Assembly: GCF_014235875.1 (NCBI RefSeq)
Contig: NZ_JACJUK010000001.1
Span: 496,001-560,000 of the forward strand
From: Croceivirga lutea
GTDB taxonomy: Bacteria; Bacteroidota; Bacteroidia; Flavobacteriales; Flavobacteriaceae
Length of the DNA stretch: 64,000 nucleotides
Direction of reading: 5' to 3'
Shown: in pieces, positions 13,839 to 23,371 of the stretch
Layout: each line of letters opens with the position of its first letter
Numbering within the stretch: the first letter of the stretch is position 1
The notes under the pieces: model-generated
What the model was told of the DNA's origin: nothing
What the model saw: only the letters and a program-made list of their open reading frames with translations
Databases searched by the model: none
Program-made: the position numbers and the translations under genes

Positions 13839-14435
13839 TTAATGTCTATCTATCAAAACCTTTTCAATATCTTTTAAGGTGTAGCCTTTAGCTTGCAATA
13901 AGATTAAATAATGAAAAAGTAAATCAGCACTTTCATTTAAAAACAGCTCTTCGTTATCATCTTTCGCTTCAATAACGGTTTCTACAGCCTCTTCCCCTAC
14001 TTTTTGAGCTATTTTATTAATCCCCTTACGAAAAAGCGAAGCTACATAGCTTTTTTCATCTTCTTTATTTGCTTTACGCGAAGCAATTACCTTTTCTAAA
14101 TCAGACAAAAAACTGAAGTTTGGCGTATTTTCCTCACCCCAGCAAGTATCTGTTCCCATATGGCAAGTAGGACCGGCTGGTTTCACTTTTATCAATAGTG
14201 TGTCATTATCACAATCCACCTTCATAGAAATCAATTCCAAAAAATTGCCGCTTTCTTCACCTTTGGTCCATAACCTGTTTTTAGAACGACTAAAAAAAGT
14301 GACTTTACCTGTTTCTTTGGTTTTATTTATAGCTTCTTGATTCATGTACCCTAACATCAACACATTTTTTGTTCGTGCATCTTGAATTATTGCTGGTACC
14401 AAACCATCTTTATCTTTTGAAAAATCGATTTTCAT
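13839..14435 (-). CDS. hisIE: phosphoribosyl-AMP cyclohydrolase / phosphoribosyl-ATP diphosphatase
   Basis: The 198-residue fusion carries steps 2 and 3 of histidine synthesis. The N-terminal HisI domain (about 1-105) has the zinc and metal residues in DCDNDTL and CHMGTDTCW; the C-terminal HisE domain (about 110-198) has the EEAVETVIEAKD helix of the MazG-like pyrophosphatase fold. It is the last gene of the his operon, 57 bases after hisF. Fusion is common in Bacteroidota. Cytoplasmic. Confidence 0.95.
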   Translation of the reverse strand: MKIDFSKDKDGLVPAIIQDARTKNVLMLGYMNQEAINKTKETGKVTFFSRSKNRLWTKGEESGNFLELISMKVDCDNDTLLIKVKPAGPTCHMGTDTCWGEENTPNFSFLSDLEKVIASRKANKEDEKSYVASLFRKGINKIAQKVGEEAVETVIEAKDDNEELFLNESADLLFHYLILLQAKGYTLKDIEKVLIDRH

Positions 14436-14492: not shown

Positions 14493-15248
14493 TCAAATTC
14501 GTACCGGAATTCCTTCTTCTTTCAACTGTTGTTTTAAATCTGGAATTGCTATTTCTTTAAAGTGGAATACACTTGCCGCTAAAGCAGCATCTGCCTTACC
14601 GTTTCTAAAAGTATCTGTAAAATGAGACACCGCTCCTGCACCACCGGAAGCAATTATTGGAATGTTTACCAAACTAGATAGTTTAGCCAATTCTGCATCA
14701 GCAAAGCCATTTTTGGTGCCGTCATGGTCCATAGAGGTAAATAAAATTTCACCTGCGCCACGCTGTTCTACTTCTTTTGCCCAATCAAACAAATCTAACT
14801 CTGTAGGTACTTTACCACCAACCAAATGTACTTTCCAGCCATAAGTAGTTTTACGTGCATCAATAGCCACGACAATACATTGCGAACCAAACTTAGCAAC
14901 CAATTGGTTAATTAAGTCAGGATTCTTAACCGCAGATGAGTTAATAGAAACCTTGTCTGCACCGTTTTTGAGTAGAATATCTACATCTTCTACAGAAGAA
15001 ATTCCGCCACCTACAGTGAATGGAATATTTAATTTTTCTGCAACGTGATACACCAATTTCGCAAGCGTTTTACGTTTTTGCTCGGTTGCAGAAATATCTA
15101 AGAACACCAGTTCATCTGCTCCTTCTTTCGCATAACGTTGGGCTAATTCTACCGGGTCACCAGCATCACGCAAATCCACAAAATTTACGCCTTTAACGGT
15201 TCTACCGTCTTTTATATCTAAACAGGGTATGATTCTTTTTGTAAGCAA
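14493..15248 (-). CDS. hisF: imidazole glycerol phosphate synthase, cyclase subunit
   Basis: The 251-residue TIM barrel joins with HisH to convert PRFAR and ammonia to imidazole glycerol phosphate and AICAR. The catalytic Asp is D11 in [10 protein letters not shown]; the second is in VVAIDARK. The phosphate loops VGGGISS and ASGGAG are present. It follows the DinB-like gene after 23 bases; hisH lies six genes upstream, so the two subunits are unusually separated by inserted genes. Confidence 0.96.
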
Positions 15249-15271: not shown

Positions 15272-15796
15272 TTAATTGGCTTTATCGTTGTTTAAAATAT
15301 TTAGGTCTTGCCCATCGTAAAAGCCTAATTGTTCATCTTTGAGAAATTTTACCCAAAAGGCAATTTGCCCAGTGTGGTACGAAAAATGTTCAACCAAATG
15401 GATAATATTTCCGATTCCAGAAAATTCAAATCCTTGAACAGGTTTTACAGTAACTAGCCTTTCATCTGATATTGATTTAAGCACATTCTTCACCTCTAAA
15501 ACGGTACTAGTTAATTTAGAAAATATGTCTTTTTTAGTGAATCCTTTTTCCATGGAAAATTCCAAATCTCGATTTCTTATGTCTTCAATCTCTTTTAAAG
15601 ACGAAATACCATACTGTCTTAAATTACCACAAAGATGTAGAATTAAATTAGCTATGCTATTCGTGTTCGTATTTGGCTTTTGCCATAGTTGTTCTTCTGT
15701 AATTTTAGCTAAAGAAATCTCAATCATCCGAAGACTTTCATCTAAACGGTAATTAGCATTAGAAATAAATTCTTCTTTAAATTTATTAGTATTCAT
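15272..15796 (-). CDS. DinB-superfamily protein inserted in his operon
   Basis: The 174-residue protein is a DinB/YfiT-like four-helix bundle with the three metal-binding histidines in LILHLCGN and in [10 protein letters not shown]. The superfamily contains thiol-dependent transferases using bacillithiol or other thiols; the substrate here is unknown. Its ATG overlaps the end of hisA by 11 bases, so it is translated as part of the his operon though no role in histidine synthesis is known. Confidence 0.85.
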
Positions 15797-16565
15797 TAGT
15801 TAAAATATAGTGCTCTAGTTGTTTTAGACGAATTCTATTTTCATAAATGGCTTTGCCAATTATAACTCCTTCACAGCCTATTTCTTTTAATTTTGGGAGT
15901 TCATCAAAAGTAGATATACCACCACTAGCAATCAATTTTATTTGATGCTCAATATTTTGTGCGACACTATTCGTGTTATCTGCAGTAGCCGTTTTAGTTT
16001 GTAGTAATATTTTCTGATACAAATCGAATGCCGGCCCTTGTAACATACCATCTTTAGAAATATCTGTGCAAATAACATAAGAAATGCCTTTGGCTTGATA
16101 TTCATTTATAAAGGGAATTAATTCTTGGTCCGATTCTTCTTGCCATCCCGAGACTGCTATTTTTTCATTATTGGCATCTGCGCCAAGAATAATTTTGTCG
16201 CTACCGTGTTGCTGAATCCATCCTAAAAAAGTGTCGGGGTCTTTCACCGCAATACTACCGCCTGTAATTTGATTGGCCCCACTTTCAAAGGCAATGTGTA
16301 AATCTTCATCGGTTTTTAATCCGCCTCCAAAATCAATTTTCAAATTGGTTTTTGTAGCAATTTGCTCCAAAACCTTATGATTTACAATGTGTTTGGACTT
16401 TGCACCGTCTAGATCTACCAAATGCAGGTACTGAATACCACGGTCCTGAAACTCTTTAGCTACTTCTAACGGATTCTCATTGTATATTTTTTTGGTATCG
16501 TAATCGCCCTTAGACAAACGAACACATTTACCGTCTATAATATCTATTGCTGGGATTATTCTCAT
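15786..16565 (-). CDS. hisA: ProFAR isomerase
   Basis: The 259-residue TIM barrel opens the ribose of ProFAR to PRFAR. D8 in [15 protein letters not shown] is the first catalytic Asp and DISKDGML carries the second; GGGLKT and ASGGIS are the phosphate loops. About ten more residues than usual sit in the loop between TKTATADN and EHQIK. It lies between the four-helix-bundle gene and the DinB gene, both foreign to the pathway. Confidence 0.95.
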
Positions 16566-16617: not shown

Positions 16618-16968
16618 TTAAGTTAGTTTTTTCTGTAAGGCATAATTCATGTTTTTGATGTCCTCAATAAGGTTTAATAACTCTTCGATGGCAATAGAGT
16701 TTCCAAAATTTAGACGTTTAATCAATAGTAATTGTGTTTCAACTTCACAACAAGAACCATTTGCAACACTTAAAAAATGACGAAATTCATTATTACCTTT
16801 TCGTCCTGCTCCTTCCGCAATATTGGAAGGTATTGAAATAGCTGCTCTTTTTATTTGAGCGGTGATTCCAAATTTTTCATCAATAGGTAGATTATCAGTG
16901 GCTTTATAAATTTTTTCTACTAAATCCATTGACTTTTGCCAAATTATTAAATCTTTGAACTTGTTCAT
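16618..16968 (-). CDS. four-helix-bundle protein (23S rRNA IVS/S23 family)
   Basis: The 116-residue protein begins FKDLIIWQKSMDLV and contains RAAISIPSNIAEGAGR, the signature of the small four-helix-bundle family first described from intervening sequences in 23S rRNA genes and related to Avd of diversity-generating retroelements. The family forms pentamers; function is unknown and copies turn up scattered through Bacteroidota genomes. Here it lies inside the his operon, on the same strand, bracketed by inverted arrays of 7-bp AGTA/TACT repeats, which suggests it arrived as a small mobile cassette. No reverse transcriptase or variable repeat is nearby. Confidence 0.9.
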   Translation of the reverse strand: MNKFKDLIIWQKSMDLVEKIYKATDNLPIDEKFGITAQIKRAAISIPSNIAEGAGRKGNNEFRHFLSVANGSCCEVETQLLLIKRLNFGNSIAIEELLNLIEDIKNMNYALQKKLT

Positions 16969-17011: not shown

Positions 17012-17431
17012 CTAATCTAATTTTGCTTTATCTATAGCCATCCATAATTCTGAATTACCCACAGCTTTAAAACCATATTTTTCATAAAGTTTGTGCGCAT
17101 CTTTTGTTTTTAGACTAATGGTCAACACATTTTTGATACAAGCATCTTCCAAAATATGAGCTACAAGCCATTTGCCCAATCCCTTACCTTGGTAATCGTC
17201 AAATATGATAACGTCCATGATATAAGCAAAAGCAACATGGTCCGTTAATACTCTTGCAAATCCTACCTGTTCCATAGCTTCCTTGTAAACACCGAAACAA
17301 ATGGTGTTTTTAATGGTAGTTTTAGTTTGCTGTTCCGTTCTATAACCACCCCAATACGATGTTTTAATCGCTTTATGAATTTTATCAAATTGCAACAAAT
17401 TTTTGTCCTTGGAAATGGTGTAACCAATCAT
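17012..17431 (-). CDS. GNAT-family N-acetyltransferase
   Basis: The 139-residue protein is a single GNAT domain. The acetyl-CoA pyrophosphate loop is DDYQGKGLGKWL (Q/R-x-x-G-x-G/A type), preceded by the DVIIF strand and followed by LYEKYGFKAVG. It uses acetyl-CoA to acetylate an amine whose identity is unknown. It starts two bases after the hisH stop, in frame with operon transcription, but is not part of the histidine pathway. Confidence 0.88.
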   Translation of the reverse strand: MIGYTISKDKNLLQFDKIHKAIKTSYWGGYRTEQQTKTTIKNTICFGVYKEAMEQVGFARVLTDHVAFAYIMDVIIFDDYQGKGLGKWLVAHILEDACIKNVLTISLKTKDAHKLYEKYGFKAVGNSELWMAIDKAKLD

Positions 17432-17433
17432 TA

Positions 17434-18012
17434 CTACAAACTCAAGAAGTTTTTAAGTATCTGAGCGCCATATTCGCCCGACTTTTCTGGGTGAAACTGT
17501 ACACCGTAAAAATTATCTTTTGCCAAAGCGGCACTGTATTCAAGTCCGTAGGTACTTGTTGCAATAGTAGCCTCGCATTTTGGAGCATAAAAACTATGGA
17601 CCAGATATATAAAATCGTTCTCCAAGTTTTTAAACAAGGGCGACTGCAAGTTTTCAATCTTATTCCAACCAATCTGAGGCACTTTTACACTAGTCTCAAA
17701 CTTAACAACATCCACATCAAATATGCCTAATCCTTTAGTATTGCCTTCTTCAGAAGCATTACACATGAGCTGCATACCCAAGCAAATACCCAAAACTGGC
17801 TGTTTTAGCGTAGGAATGATGGAGTCTAAACCACTTTCTTTTAGCTTATGCATAGCAGAGCTTGCTTCCCCTACCCCTGGGAAAATTACTTTATCCGCAT
17901 TACGAATAACTTCTGTGTCATTACTTAGAACAGCTTCTACTCCCAAACGTTGAAAGGCAAACTTGATGCTCTGTATATTTCCAGCGCCATAGTCTATAAT
18001 TACCAAACTCAT
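17434..18012 (-). CDS. hisH: imidazole glycerol phosphate synthase, glutaminase subunit
   Basis: The 192-residue class I glutamine amidotransferase supplies ammonia to HisF. The catalytic triad is C77 in GICLGMQ, H174 and E176 in VQFHPEKSG; the [10 protein letters not shown] loop forms the oxyanion region. Its ATG overlaps the hisB stop by four bases (ATGA), so translation is coupled. Confidence 0.96.
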
Positions 18013-19145
18013 AACATTCCTTTTGTAGATGGTAAAATCATTTTTTCTTTGTCTTGCTTTACCGCCATTTTTATCGCTTTTGCCAACGCTTTAAAAATTG
18101 CCTCTATTTTGTGGTGCTCGTTAGTGCCCTCTGCCTTAATATTTAAATTGGCCTTAGCCCCGTCCGTAAACGATTTAAAGAAATGATGAAACATTTCTGT
18201 AGGCATATCTCCTACCTTTTCACGTTTAAAATCGGCTTCCCAAACCAACCAATTTCTTCCACCAAAATCTATAGCAGCAGAAGCCAGACAGTCATCCATA
18301 GGCAAACAAAATCCGTAGCGTTCTATACCCAACTTATTTCCTAGGGCTTTATGGAAGACTTCGCCTAAGGCAATTCCCGTATCTTCTATGGTGTGGTGTT
18401 CATCTACTTCCAAATCGCCATCCACCTTAATATCTAAATCCATTTGACCATGGCGTGCAATTTGGTCTAACATATGGTCAAAAAACTTTAAGCCCGTATC
18501 AATATTGGCTTTACCAGTACCATCTAGATTTACTTTGATATGAATTTTGGTTTCCTTGGTTTCTCTTTTAATTTCCGCAACTCTATCCTGCACCTTTAAA
18601 AATTCGTAAATGGCTTGCCAATCATTACTTTCTAGAGCAATAAAATCGTCCAAATCTTTACGTTCAACTGTAATTTCTCCAGTACCCAAATTGGTGTTAT
18701 CGTTAATGAAAATCCCTTTTGCACCTAAATTTTTAGCCAGCTCTACATCGGTTAGCCTATCGCCAATTACAAACGAATTTTCTAAGTCGTACGCATCCGA
18801 AAAATATTCCGTTAACATCCCCGTACCCGGCTTACGCGTATCGGCATTTTCGTTTGGGAAAGTTCTATCTATATAAACCGCATCAAAATGAACACCCTCA
18901 TTCTCAAAAGCGGTAATAATAAAGTTGTGCACTGGCCAAAAGGTGTCTTCAGGAAATGTTTCGGTACCTAAACCATCTTGGTTGGTAATCATTACCAAGC
19001 TATAATCTAGTTCCTTGGCAATTTTACCTAAATAGGTGAATGCTTTTGGATAGAAAATCATTTTTTCAAAGGCATCTATTTGCTCATCAACAGTTTCTTT
19101 GATGATGGTGCCATCACGGTCTATAAATAATACTTTTTTAGCCAT
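18009..19145 (-). CDS. hisB: histidinol-phosphatase / IGP dehydratase, bifunctional
   Basis: The 378-residue fusion performs steps 7 and 9 of the pathway. The N-terminal HAD phosphatase (about 1-165) has the nucleophile pair in DRDGT, D9 and D11, and [10 protein letters not shown]. The C-terminal dehydratase (about 185-378) has the two manganese motifs DEHHTIED and NEHHKIEA. The same fusion occurs in Enterobacteria and in Bacteroidota. One base separates it from hisC. Confidence 0.96.
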
Positions 19146-20192
19146 TTATAGGGCTTTTAAGGTTGAAATTAGTTTGTCATTTTCGTTAACCGTACCAACA
19201 GTTAATCGAAGCGTATTTTCGCACAGTGGTTGGGTACTTCGGTTTCGTATTACGATTCCTTTTTCCAATAATTGGTTATACCGCTTATTGGCATCATCAA
19301 CTTTAATTAAAATAAAATTAGCGTCGCTATCGTAAATTGTTTCGATATACGGAATGGTAGCAATGGCTTCGGATAATCGCTTACGTTCTTGAAGTAATGT
19401 TTGCACTTGCTCTTTTACCGTTGCGTAATTTTCTAGGGCTTCAAATGCCTTTTGTTGTGTAAGTTCATTTACGTTGTAGGGTGGTTTAATTTTCTTTAAA
19501 ACCGCTATGATTTCTTCTGAAGCAAAACACAAGCCCAGACGAATACCCGCCATAGCAAAAGCTTTAGAAAGTGTCTGTGTTACAATAAGATTAGGAAAAT
19601 CGTTTAAACGAAAACTCCAACTACCGTTTGTTGCAAAATCGATATAGGCCTCGTCTACTACTACCAATCCCGTAAACTCGAACAATAAGCGCTCTATCGC
19701 TTCAAAATCAAAACTATTCCCTGTAGGATTGTTTGGCGTGCACAAAAAAAGTAGCTTGGTGTTTTCATCCGTGGCTGCTAGAATCTCATCAACATTAGGC
19801 TGAAATTTATCCGTTAGCAGCACTTCCCTATTCTCAATATTATTAATGCCAGATAGTACCTTATACATTCCGTACGTAGGAGGCAAGGTTATTATATTGT
19901 CTTTACCTGGTTCACAAAAAGCTCTGAAAATTAAATCGAGTACTTCATCACTACCGTTACCTACTAAAATCTGACTAGCTTCCACTTGTTTCACCTCAGA
20001 AATCAGTTGTTTCAAATTACGTTGATGCGGGTCTGGGTATCGATTTAAACCATTTTCAAATGGGTTTTCATTGGCATCTAAAAATACCATCTGTTCACCA
20101 GAAGAAACATACTCATCTCTAGCAGACGAATACGGTTTTAATGCCTTTACGTTTTCACGAACCAAAAGGTCCAAATTAAATAGTGTATTCAT
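19146..20192 (-). CDS. hisC: histidinol-phosphate aminotransferase
   Basis: The 348-residue fold-type I PLP enzyme transfers an amino group from glutamate to imidazole acetol phosphate. The Schiff-base lysine is in TLSKAFAMAGIRLG, the Asp that holds the pyridine nitrogen is in VVDEAYIDF, and GNGSDEVLD and CTPNNPTGN are family motifs. It follows hisD with a two-base gap. Confidence 0.96.
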   Translation of the reverse strand: MNTLFNLDLLVRENVKALKPYSSARDEYVSSGEQMVFLDANENPFENGLNRYPDPHQRNLKQLISEVKQVEASQILVGNGSDEVLDLIFRAFCEPGKDNIITLPPTYGMYKVLSGINNIENREVLLTDKFQPNVDEILAATDENTKLLFLCTPNNPTGNSFDFEAIERLLFEFTGLVVVDEAYIDFATNGSWSFRLNDFPNLIVTQTLSKAFAMAGIRLGLCFASEEIIAVLKKIKPPYNVNELTQQKAFEALENYATVKEQVQTLLQERKRLSEAIATIPYIETIYDSDANFILIKVDDANKRYNQLLEKGIVIRNRSTQPLCENTLRLTVGTVNENDKLISTLKAL

Positions 20193-20194
20193 TC

Positions 20195-21481
20195 CTATTC
20201 TTCCAAGGATTTAAGGCGTAAGGTAACCGCATTTTTATGCGCTTGTAAGCCTTCTGCCTCTGCCATTAGTTCTATACTTTTTCCTAGATTTTTAATACCT
20301 TCTTTACTCAAACGTTGAAAAGTCATACTTTTAGTAAAACTGTCTAGATTAACACCGCTATACTGTTTTGCATAACCGTTTGTGGGCAAAGTGTGGTTGG
20401 TTCCAGAGGCATAATCTCCTGCGCTCTCTGGTGTGTAATTACCTATAAAAACCGAACCAGCATTATACGTATTGTTTACATAGAAATCTTCATTTTCCAC
20501 ACAAACAATATAGTGTTCTGGTGCATATTGGTTAATTATAGCTAATGCGGTTTCGTCGTTATCTACAATAATTAGTTTACTATTTTCAATCGCTTGGGTT
20601 GCAATATCTTTTCTTGGTAAAATGGCCAATTGGTTTTCTAAAGCTACAGTTACTTTAGAAGCAAAGGCCTCTGAAGTAGTAACTAAAACTACCTGACTAT
20701 CCACACCATGTTCGGCTTGACTCAATAAATCTGAAGCTACAAAATCAGCATTTGCGGTGTCATCTGCTACGACCAACAACTCGCTAGGACCCGCCGGCAT
20801 ATCTATACTTACTCCAAATTTGGTTGCCATTTGTTTGGCAGTAGTTACGTATTGGTTACCCGGGCCAAATATTTTATACACTTGGGGCACACTCTCTGTA
20901 CCAAATGTCATTGCGCCAATAGCTTGTATACCACCAACCTTTACAATTTTGGTAACCCCGCATAATTGAGCAGCGAATAAAATAGCCGGATGTAACTTCC
21001 CTTCCTTATCAGGCGGGCTACATAGTACAATTTCTTGGCAACCTACAATTTTTGCAGGCAAGGCAAGCATTAAAATAGTAGAAAACAAAGGTGCTGTACC
21101 ACCAGGAATGTAAAGACCAACTTTTTGAATAGCTCGTTTTTCTTGCCAACAGTCTACGCCTGGCATGGTAGTAACCGCTACACGTTCTGTTTTTTGTGCT
21201 TGGTGAAAAGCTTCAATATTACTTTTAGCAACTTTAATCGCTTCTTTTAATTCTTTAGAAATTAGTGCCATTCCTTCTTTAATTTCTTCCTCAGAAACTA
21301 ATAAATTGTCAAGTTTGGCACCATCAAACTTTTCGGTGTAAGCTTTTAACGCTTTATCTCCTTGCGCTTGTACGGCATCAAAAATCTCCTTCACAATAGG
21401 CTCTAAAGCTTCATAAGATTGTGTGGGTCTTGCTAAAATGGTAGACCACTCACTTTTAGCCGGATTCGTATATCTTTTCAT
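20195..21481 (-). CDS. hisD: histidinol dehydrogenase
   Basis: The 428-residue zinc and NAD-dependent enzyme oxidises histidinol to histidine in two steps. Motifs: YIPGGTAPL, GPGNQYVTTAK, DMPAGPSE, LLSQAEHG (zinc and catalytic His/Gln), PEHY and TNHTLPT. It starts one base after the hisG stop. Confidence 0.96.
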   Translation of the reverse strand: MKRYTNPAKSEWSTILARPTQSYEALEPIVKEIFDAVQAQGDKALKAYTEKFDGAKLDNLLVSEEEIKEGMALISKELKEAIKVAKSNIEAFHQAQKTERVAVTTMPGVDCWQEKRAIQKVGLYIPGGTAPLFSTILMLALPAKIVGCQEIVLCSPPDKEGKLHPAILFAAQLCGVTKIVKVGGIQAIGAMTFGTESVPQVYKIFGPGNQYVTTAKQMATKFGVSIDMPAGPSELLVVADDTANADFVASDLLSQAEHGVDSQVVLVTTSEAFASKVTVALENQLAILPRKDIATQAIENSKLIIVDNDETALAIINQYAPEHYIVCVENEDFYVNNTYNAGSVFIGNYTPESAGDYASGTNHTLPTNGYAKQYSGVNLDSFTKSMTFQRLSKEGIKNLGKSIELMAEAEGLQAHKNAVTLRLKSLEE

Positions 21482-21482
21482 T

Positions 21483-22337
21483 TTAAAGCACCATTTTTTC
21501 TATTGGGCAAACCAAAATACCTTCTGCACCCGCCTGTTTTAATTCGTCTATCACTTCCCAAAAAGTATCTTTGTTAATCACGGTGTGCACGGAGCTCCAA
21601 CCCTCTTCTGCCAAAGGTAAAACCGTAGGGCTGCGCATACCAGGTAAAATAGTGAGAATAGTATCTAGATTAGCATTAGGTACATTCATTAGAACATACT
21701 TGTTCTTTCTTGCTTTAAGTACAGATTGTATACGGAATAACAATTTGTCTAGTATTGCATTACGCTCTACATCAATTTTTGGAGAAACTGCTAGAACTGC
21801 TTCACTTTTTAAAAGCACCTCTACCTCTTTAAGATTGTTTTTAAACAAGGTACTACCACTAGAAACAATATCGCAAATAGCATCTGCAAGTCCTATATTT
21901 GGTGCAATTTCTACGGAGCCATTAATCAAATGAATATCTGCATTGATACCGTTTTGCTCTAAAAATTTATTTACCGTATTTGGATAGGAAGTCGCAATAC
22001 GTTTTCCTTCAAAATCTTTAAAGGAATTGTATTGTTTCTCTTTTGGAATAGCCATGCTTACTTTACATTTAGAGAAGCCGAGCTTCTCGGCTACGGTAAT
22101 GCCCTCTCCTTTTTCAAAAAGCACATTCTCCCCTATAATAGCTATATCAACTACACCATCTTTAAGGTACTGCGGAATATCTCCGTTACGCAGGTAAAAA
22201 ACTTCCATTGGAAAATTTCGAGCATCTGCTTTTAACTGGTCTTTACCATTGTCTATAGATATGCCGCAATTTTTTAAGATGTTAAGAGAATCTTCATTTA
22301 AACGACCACTTTTTTGAATAGCAATTCTTAGTTTCAT
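21483..22337 (-). CDS. hisG: ATP phosphoribosyltransferase, long form
   Basis: The 284-residue enzyme condenses ATP and PRPP and is the regulated first step. It is the long form, with a C-terminal ferredoxin-like domain (from about 210) that binds histidine for feedback inhibition, so no HisZ is needed. The PRPP loop is in CDIVSSGSTL; KLRIAIQKSGRL is the usual N-terminus. The start lies 60 bases after the attenuator hairpin. Confidence 0.96.
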   Translation of the reverse strand: MKLRIAIQKSGRLNEDSLNILKNCGISIDNGKDQLKADARNFPMEVFYLRNGDIPQYLKDGVVDIAIIGENVLFEKGEGITVAEKLGFSKCKVSMAIPKEKQYNSFKDFEGKRIATSYPNTVNKFLEQNGINADIHLINGSVEIAPNIGLADAICDIVSSGSTLFKNNLKEVEVLLKSEAVLAVSPKIDVERNAILDKLLFRIQSVLKARKNKYVLMNVPNANLDTILTILPGMRSPTVLPLAEEGWSSVHTVINKDTFWEVIDELKQAGAEGILVCPIEKMVL

Positions 22338-22397
22338 TTTTTAAGTTTACGTGTTTTGCGTTACACCGGTTTTACTTTTCTTTTTCAGTTTAAGACA

Positions 22398-22428
22398 TAA
22401 AAAAACCCGTTTGATTGCTCAAACGGGT
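22398..22428 (-). terminator. histidine operon attenuator (intrinsic terminator)
   Basis: On the minus strand ACCCGTTTGA and TCAAACGGGT make a perfect 10-bp stem around GCAA, followed by seven T. It lies between the leader peptide stop (22460) and the hisG start (22337). The left arm and loop include TTGAGC (22422-22417), complementary to GCTCAA (22474-22469) within the leader coding region, which would give an alternative antiterminator pairing when a ribosome stalls at the His codons. Confidence 0.88.
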
Positions 22429-22459
22429 CTAATCTTATTTTGACATACACAAAATACAG

Positions 22460-22513
22460 TTACCTCGCTTGAGCGATTGTAAAAGTATGATGATGTACAT
22501 GATATTTTGTCAT
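22460..22513 (-). CDS. hisL: histidine operon leader peptide, 17 aa
   Basis: Reading the minus strand from ATG at 22513 gives MTKYHVHHHTFTIAQAR and TAA. Four of the first nine residues are histidine (codons 5, 7, 8 and 9, all CAT). A rho-independent hairpin follows 32 bases after the stop, before hisG. This is the classic arrangement for ribosome-mediated attenuation: with scarce His-tRNA the ribosome stalls at the CAT codons, the downstream GCTCAA is free to pair with the hairpin's left side, and transcription continues. The ORF is too short for standard gene finders. Mechanism is inferred from layout; the peptide and the hairpin are seen directly. Confidence 0.88.
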   Translation of the reverse strand: MTKYHVHHHTFTIAQAR

Positions 22514-22520
22514 AACAGTG

Positions 22521-22548
22521 TAAAAGTAAAACGAAATAATTTTACAAA
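22521..22548 (-). promoter_or_regulatory. possible promoter of the his operon
   Basis: On the minus strand a TTTG at 22548-22545 and a TACTTTTA box at 22528-22521 (one mismatch to TAnnTTTG) are separated by 16 bases. Transcription would begin only a few bases before the leader ATG at 22513, giving an almost leaderless mRNA. The spacing is short, so this is tentative. Confidence 0.3.
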
Positions 22549-22558
22549 AAAGAAAATT

Positions 22559-23371
22559 TTAGTTATTTCCTAAAATTAATGGTAATCCGTCATCACCAGA
22601 GCCAACTACAACTATTTTGGAATTAGGACTCTTAGACAATTCTAAGGTAGCTTCTATACCCTTGTCTTGAAGGATTTTATCAGTTAACGATGCACTCAAA
22701 ATCCGGTTTGCATCGGCTTTACCTTGCGCTTCAATACGAACCTTTTCGGCTTCTTTTTGAGCAGTCACTAATTTAAATTCATATTCCAAAGACTGTTGTT
22801 CTTGTTGTAACTTGCTTTCAATAGCTTGTTTTATCGTTGGAGGCAGTTTTACATCTTCAACTAAAACTCTTTTAACATTAAGAAATTGGCCTTCTAGTTC
22901 ATTTCGAACTTCGTCTAATATTTCTTGTTCTATGACATCTCGTTTACTAGAATACAATTGCTCTGGTGTATATCTACCAACTACACTACGTGCAGCCGCG
23001 TTTACAGCAGGGTCTAATAATTCTTGTACGTAATCTTCACCTTTTGTTTTTATAAGTAAGCCAAGACTACTATATACTGGTTCAAACCAGATTGTACCAT
23101 TTACACTTACTTCTAAGCCATTTACTGACAATACATTCATTTGATCAGAAATAGATTGTTGACGTACTTTATGAATCAACATATCATTCCATGGGGCTAC
23201 TACATGCCAACCTTCACCATAAGTTTTGTCTGTTACAACACCGCCACCTGCAGGTTTAAATAATACCCCTCCTTCACCAGGGCCAATGCGAACTATTGTT
23301 TTTGTAATTAAGATTATTGCTACAATTGCAATAAAAACTGCCGGAAGCGCAATCTTGGGTAATCTATCCAT
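22559..23371 (-). CDS. prohibitin-family (SPFH/Band 7) membrane protein
   Basis: The 270-residue protein has an N-terminal membrane helix (about 9-28) and an SPFH domain running to about 200, then a coiled-coil with QKEAEKVRIEAQGKADANR, typical of prohibitin/stomatin oligomers. Such proteins form ring-shaped scaffolds that bind membrane proteases or organise lipid domains. It follows the VWA membrane protein gene by 11 bases on the same strand. Specific partner unknown; FtsH is a common one. Confidence 0.88.
   Translation of the reverse strand: MDRLPKIALPAVFIAIVAIILITKTIVRIGPGEGGVLFKPAGGGVVTDKTYGEGWHVVAPWNDMLIHKVRQQSISDQMNVLSVNGLEVSVNGTIWFEPVYSSLGLLIKTKGEDYVQELLDPAVNAAARSVVGRYTPEQLYSSKRDVIEQEILDEVRNELEGQFLNVKRVLVEDVKLPPTIKQAIESKLQQEQQSLEYEFKLVTAQKEAEKVRIEAQGKADANRILSASLTDKILQDKGIEATLELSKSPNSKIVVVGSGDDGLPLILGNN

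Follow-up and report, generated by a model that had tools for sequence, protein, structure and literature searches.

The DNA upstream of hisG, the first gene of the presumed histidine operon of the flavobacterium Croceivirga lutea, contains a short open reading frame (ORF) rich in His codons, followed by a hairpin and a run of T. This raises the question whether the operon is controlled by ribosome-mediated attenuation as in enterobacteria, and whether such control is confined to one genome. The stretch analysed here, referred to as the window, comprises 64,000 nucleotides (nt) of contig NZ_JACJUK010000001.1, and all elements of the putative attenuator sit on its minus strand. On the evidence of sequence, it is highly probable that the element controls the his operon as a ribosome-mediated transcription attenuator: a leader ORF, a terminator and an antiterminator pairing are present, and they are conserved together and covary.

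The preliminary description of this DNA had reported a 17-residue leader peptide with four His, all encoded by CAT, upstream of hisG, and direct reading bears this out, the His codons being codons 5, 7, 8 and 9 and the leader ATG lying 176 nt from that of hisG. This leader is the sole ATG-started ORF of 8-40 codons on either strand of the window with at least four His in five residues. The reported hairpin with seven T behind the leader is likewise found (22428-22405, T 22405-22399), one T being shared with the hairpin. A simple terminator scan of 22300-22700 returns this hairpin alone; allowing up to three mismatches, it occurs once in the 64 kilobases and not at all in shuffled sequences. 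The T tract stops 61 nt short of the hisG ATG and leaves it uncovered. A further statement had been that GCTCAA in the distal leader codons pairs with TTGAGC in the terminator. The distal codons do pair with the left side of the terminator, but over 9 bp instead of 6, including one G-U (22474-22466 with 22425-22417; strands B and C in Table 1). The duplex of B with the terminator left side amounts to -19.4 kcal/mol, a value never reached when the sequence between the His codons and the terminator was put through 10,000 dinucleotide shuffles, and the fold of the leader RNA lies 5.1 standard deviations lower than those of its own shuffles. Among the features by which an attenuator is recognised, a leader ORF with codons for the product of the pathway and an intrinsic terminator between leader and first gene are found in the sequence, while an antiterminator exclusive with the terminator is found in the sequence together with a folding model, under a ribosome at the stop codon.

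Table 1. Features of the predicted his attenuator and of the his gene cluster in the window.
Feature	Positions	Strand	Basis
Predicted -7 promoter box TACTTTTA (consensus TAnnTTTG, one letter off)	22521..22528	minus	sequence; ends 7 nt before leader ATG
Leader ORF, 17 codons, MTKYHVHHHTFTIAQAR, stop TAA	22460..22513	minus	ATG 22513, TAA 22460; direct reading
Control codons CAT GTA CAT CAT CAT (His 5, 7, 8, 9)	22487..22501	minus	direct reading
Antiterminator 5' strand (B), GCTCAAGCG, leader codons 14-16	22466..22474	minus	pairing and covariation
Antiterminator 3' strand (C), CGTTTGAGC, in terminator left arm and loop	22417..22425	minus	pairing and covariation
Terminator hairpin ACCCGTTTGA-GCAA-TCAAACGGGT	22405..22428	minus	terminator scan; pairing in family alignment
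T7 tract of terminator	22399..22405	minus	first T pairs with first A of hairpin
hisG, first gene of presumed operon	21483..22337	minus	NCBIfam TIGR00070, TIGR03455
hisD	20195..21481	minus	TIGR00069
hisC	19146..20192	minus	TIGR01141
hisB, bifunctional	18009..19145	minus	NF003937
hisH	17434..18012	minus	TIGR01855
hisA	15786..16565	minus	TIGR00007
hisF	14493..15248	minus	TIGR00735
hisIE	13839..14435	minus	NF002747

In the proposed mechanism transcription would begin a short way ahead of the leader ATG, with a ribosome that translates the leader trailing behind the polymerase. A shortage of charged tRNA-His would stall this ribosome on the CAT run and leave codons 14-16 (GCTCAAGCG) exposed for pairing with CGTTTGAGC in the left side of the terminator; this pairing would block the terminator, and hisG and the following genes would be transcribed. 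With ample histidine, the ribosome would arrive at the stop codon and cover GCTCAAGCG, the terminator would form and transcription would end before hisG. In the family (Flavobacteriaceae), the median start of B lies 12 nt ahead of the stop codon, a position that a ribosome at the stop would cover. In a folding model with a masked ribosome at least four B:C pairs form in 124 of 127 cases with a stall at the first His, and in 1 of 127 with the ribosome at the stop; both translated states thus behave in the model as attenuation would require. The full-length fold of the window leader contains a leader hairpin, and before the right arm has been made B:C is favoured in the model even without a ribosome.

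The arrangement is by no means peculiar to this genome. Under a strict rule (at least three His in six residues, ORF of 8-40 codons, 320 nt before hisG, identical regions counted once) a His-run leader precedes hisG in 263 of 275 distinct upstream regions, as against 7 of 275 on the antisense strand and 100 of 5500 shuffles; these counts are not independent, as relatives share ancestry. Leaders are found in 112 of 114 regions of the family (110 examined loci plus four from other draws), 74/75 of the named close relatives, 22/24 of other families of the order, 41/45 of a class draw from other orders and 14/17 of a phylum draw, the last splitting into 3/3 inside the class and 11/14 in other classes. 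In the same order, the antisense strand gives 2, 3, 2, 0 and 0 leaders and the shuffles 29/2280, 19/1500, 16/480, 28/900 and 8/340. As to coverage, HisG is present in 123 of 149 family genomes, 13 of the 123 having been left out by choice, mostly as incomplete or fragmented; the class draw covers 45 of 52 HisG-positive genomes outside the order, and the phylum draw covers 17 new loci, 14 of them outside the class, leaving out 40 of 70 HisG-positive genomes (9 with HisG 40-46% identical, 31 with 26-33%). A looser rule (His-His or His-x-His in a short ORF before hisG), which carries no shuffle control, is satisfied at 110/110 family loci. The nearest named locus belongs to Flavobacterium sp. ASW18X (L031, HisG 95% identical); one labelled Croceivirga (L033) follows at 88%.

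The run itself comprises 2-6 His per leader. Family leaders use 419 CAT and 41 CAC codons, with both in 35 of 110 leaders, and the run codons are near-invariant at positions one and two across the aligned family sequences, while the third varies, mostly between T and C, as translation of the run would lead one to expect. A terminator of -10 kcal/mol or lower follows 258 of 268 leaders, compared with 8 of 1340 shuffles (114/114 in the family, 75/75 in named relatives, 21/22 in other families of the order, 38/43 in the class draw, 10/14 in the phylum draw). The absence of His run or hairpin from close relatives, which the preliminary description had named as one of two observations that would refute it, is not what we found: among the distinct family sequences 186/189 carry the run under the strict rule and 189/189 the hairpin.

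Under the strict rule no His leader was found at L217 and L219, the two misses of the order and both loci examined of family f16. The HisG-positive genomes of f16 measure about 0.6 Mb; at these two loci hisG is retained without a His leader, as if the regulation had been lost along with genome reduction. The three misses of the phylum draw belong to f87 and f80. In another class, L284 and L285 (f85) show unusually long His-rich leaders, VHTAHHTHHGSHHGHH and HTTHHHSGAHHPHHWHH, behind which the terminator scan found no terminator; they perhaps represent a different form of attenuation.

The distribution also bears on a simpler explanation, namely that the hairpin is merely the 3' terminator of the upstream Band_7/SPFH gene (22559-23371, minus) and the His ORF a product of chance. 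This gene lies on the same strand, and a homologue is present at 78 of 80 named loci, at 25 of 30 searched family loci and at 39 of 80 family loci with 600 nt upstream. Outside the family, however, it is found at 1 of 66 long-flank loci, hisD at 66 of 66, and the leader persists in 77 of 86 non-family regions; moreover, hairpin and leader codons covary. As the element accompanies hisG and not the upstream gene, a plain terminator of that gene was rejected, and we give it a very slim chance.

Another way in which alternative hairpins might act is translational attenuation, in which they would gate the hisG start codon and not transcription. Such variants are known among attenuators (PMC9413887). 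A T tract, however, stands behind the hairpin in 189/189 family leaders scanned, and that of the window stops well short of the hisG ATG, as described above. Control of translation is therefore improbable, with a chance that we would still call slim.

Covariation was assessed in an alignment of 57 divergent sequences out of the 110 family loci (leader-to-terminator distance at most 150 nt, similarity ratio below 0.86). In the terminator 99.5% of the cells are paired and 22 cells are changed on both sides. In the antiterminator 94.3% of the B:C cells are paired; both sides are changed in three pairs and ten cells, where shuffles average 0.8 and 1.8, and a shift of the partner by 1-3 columns leaves no more than 47.9% paired. 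The compensatory changes for which the preliminary description had proposed to look are accordingly seen in the terminator and, in smaller number, in the antiterminator. The left arm of the terminator reads CCCGTTTGA in 170 of 189 family sequences, presumably frozen because one strand must pair with two partners. Where it has C for T at the fourth core position, B has G in 6/6 classified rows, L136 among them; a left arm CGTCTG meets the leader letters TCAGGCG in 5/5 classified rows, and L183 and L188, read by eye, have G there as well. In L136, CATCTGA pairs with TCAGGTG, a second pair being changed from G-C to A-T and Ala (GCG) to Val (GTG) in the peptide.

That B is kept for RNA pairing and not for the peptide is indicated by L147 and L163, where a stop codon falls inside B, and by L176, where B lies in another frame: the letters are kept in all three. 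A conserved peptide motif QAR was rejected on the same grounds. Outside the family the segments differ, for instance a GGGTAAGC-type including the stop codon, or GGCGCCGG. There 48 of 70 pairings are as strong as the top 5% obtained when their own B is shuffled, and for 23 of the 70 no more than 5% of foreign B segments pair equally well.

Several observations weigh against attenuation as set out here, or at least against the strength of its support. Without a ribosome the folding model still gives at least four B:C pairs in 49 of 127 cases, the window included (11.9 expected pairs), and the figure for the stalled state is partly circular, B having been selected as the best partner of C. No conserved protector hairpin was found, RNAalifold on the 57 family sequences giving the terminator alone. 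The paired fraction of the antiterminator barely exceeds the 92.9% averaged by shuffles, a consequence of column conservation. A T at the fourth position (CGTTTG or CGCTTG) goes with TCAA in B in 108 rows and with TCAG, which leaves a G-U pair, in 49 rows; 26 of 189 rows, read by eye, fall outside the simple pattern, several of them with GCTCNNGCG and unpaired middle letters. The joint change at C4 and B4 amounts to two events on a poorly resolved tree of HisG N-termini, and a single origin of the C4 change in the left arm is possible. The pairing of L183 is weak (-8.1 kcal/mol). Beyond the family 22 of 70 pairings miss the 5% level, with L210, L247, L253, L258 and L260 at chance.

A covariance model of the element built on the family alignment, R1, matches in 54 of 60 family genomes at an expectation value (E) of at most 0.001. 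Fifty matches reach E<=1e-9, of which 48 lie at hisG, in 48 of 49 HisG-positive genomes; the 49th (G048) has a partial match at hisG (1.8e-6) and a strong one at a contig end. Among the 11 HisG-negative genomes one, G027, carries a match away from hisG, an orphan copy. This copy (L354:1898-2022, minus; G027:C11:14397-14521) is a complete His-leader attenuator, MNNSFLHHHHILFHALAR, in a genome without a HisG match, and the next gene on the same strand presumably encodes a CorA-like magnesium transporter; it may be either a relic or a re-used switch. When eight R1 matches outside hisG were inspected, L354 proved a true His leader, and L355-L361 resemble ordinary terminators.

The Rfam model of the His leader, RF00514 (gathering score 49 bits), exceeds its cut-off in 0 of 99 class genomes. 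It gives weak matches in 16 of them, and none of the 23 listed falls at a hisG found there; of 14 genomes used as controls, those of E. coli and C. glutamicum gave matches, and one of the two exceeds the cut-off. In the 64-kilobase window no Rfam family reaches its gathering score and His_leader is absent from the matches up to E 5. The weak matches, among them those to SSRC10, trpB and anti-hemB, were rejected, as they lie far under the gathering scores and are aligned on the terminator hairpin. These scans bear on a third explanation, by which a T-box, a metabolite riboswitch or a repressor site would control the operon and the peptide would be incidental. Elsewhere such control exists, his genes under T-box and HisR control being known from other phyla (PMC9413887), but the nine Rfam matches to E 5 in 22200-22700 include no T-box or riboswitch, repressor sites not having been searched for, and the conserved codon feature is the His run. 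We consider the chance of this explanation negligible.

In Flavobacterium psychrophilum the promoter box lies at -12 to -5 (PMC9723704), and with this placement a spacing of 7-8 nt between box and leader ATG would imply a his 5' untranslated region (5'UTR) of 3-4 nt; for the window, transcription is predicted to start at about 22516, with a 5'UTR of about 3 nt. Of 75 named close relatives, 68 have a box TAnnTTT[GA] at this spacing of 7-8 nt from the leader ATG (shuffles, over the range 5-9 nt, give 0.025 per locus). The 110 family loci show 34 instances at 5-9 nt (shuffles 0.021) and a second group of 17 at 15-19 nt, while 44 of the loci lack an exact box in the 60 nt upstream of the leader ATG; in other families the positions are scattered, 10 instances among 79 falling at 5-9 nt. 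ORFs of 150 codons or more served as controls, their start being set automatically at the first ATG; a box at 5-9 nt precedes 1 of 55 of them in the window and 2 of 378 at the named loci, where 32 have a box anywhere within 60 nt.

An attenuator-like Trp counterpart is seen in the same genome (G000:C19, locus L301) and at L290-L299, L302, L304 and L305, where a WWW leader, a hairpin and a T tract precede a trpE-like gene, the assignment resting on a PF04715 match. In 13 of 15 loci measured (out of 24 PF04715-matched loci, those with a usable Trp run) the box ends 4-5 nt before an in-frame ATG, from which a 5'UTR of 0-1 nt is predicted. Close relatives are hence predicted to start near-leaderless, with about 3-4 nt ahead of the his and 0-1 nt ahead of the trp leader. 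Leaderless mRNAs make up 5.5% in F. psychrophilum (PMC9723704).

Downstream, the his cluster (Table 1) is interrupted by unrelated genes, two between hisH and hisA and one between hisA and hisF. They encode a GNAT acetyltransferase (17012-17431), a small protein (16618-16968) that we take to resemble rRNA intervening-sequence proteins, and a DUF1572/DinB-like protein (15272-15796), all on the minus strand.

The enterobacterial leader hisL of E. coli and Salmonella contains seven consecutive His. The leaders described here differ from it in their shorter runs, in a predicted promoter of Bacteroidota type near the leader start codon and in that no conserved protector hairpin was found. Common to the window and the enterobacterial his attenuator are the His-run leader before hisG and the mutually exclusive antiterminator and U-tailed terminator (PMC9413887). 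In the Bacillus cereus group, Peptostreptococcaceae/Lutispora and Erysipelotrichales, leaders with 3-5 successive His precede alternative hairpins (PMC9413887); these belong to another phylum and are predicted in few lineages, whereas in Bacteroidota the element is found at most loci examined. Leaders that lack an upstream ribosome-binding site and have their start codon at the transcript 5' end or adjacent to it have been described for C. glutamicum ilvBNC (PMC11857589) and S. meliloti trpL (PMC7298713), in other phyla and operons; the his and trp starts reported here are predicted from promoter spacing only.

The preliminary description had called the mechanism little described in this phylum, which is fair, but the element is not undescribed. 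Guerin et al. (2021) list a structured 5' element at hisG in F. psychrophilum, present in other Flavobacteriaceae genera, and give leader-peptide clues at amino-acid operons (PMC9723704); the available text says nothing on its His codons, on pairing or covariation, or on a distribution beyond the family. For Bacteroides thetaiotaomicron, short ORFs in long 5'UTRs are reported, the his operon not being named in the portions at hand (PMC7366714). Likewise, as far as the available text goes, Del Duca et al. (2021), treating the his genes of the superphylum, mention attenuation for S. enterica and E. coli only (PMC8305728), and Naville and Gautheret (2010) describe leader peptides as previously known from Proteobacteria and Actinobacteria alone, adding Firmicutes (PMC2965389). 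A literature search, with subscription papers outside its scope, returned no report of his attenuation across Bacteroidota, of its peptide or of its pairing; absence from print is not claimed. The mechanism is thus that of the textbook his attenuator and the family-level element was already known; new are the spread beyond the family and the predicted near-leaderless starts.

A wider proposition follows, to which we give an even chance as a whole: that his attenuation is ancestral and near-universal in Bacteroidota, often rebuilt in sequence with its logic kept, and that the his and trp leaders of close relatives are translated from starts 0-4 nt off the 5' end, so that (near-)leaderless initiation would set the timing between polymerase and ribosome in a phylum without Shine-Dalgarno-driven initiation. 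The reading of one genome has turned into a rule that holds at most of the examined loci of a large phylum from the environment and the gut. A mechanism best known from Proteobacteria appears to govern histidine synthesis in Bacteroidota, unseen by the Rfam model, and a covariance model like R1 would permit its annotation at least in Flavobacteriaceae. The predicted near-leaderless starts would offer a clean system for studying translation initiation and its coupling to transcription without reliance on Shine-Dalgarno sequences.
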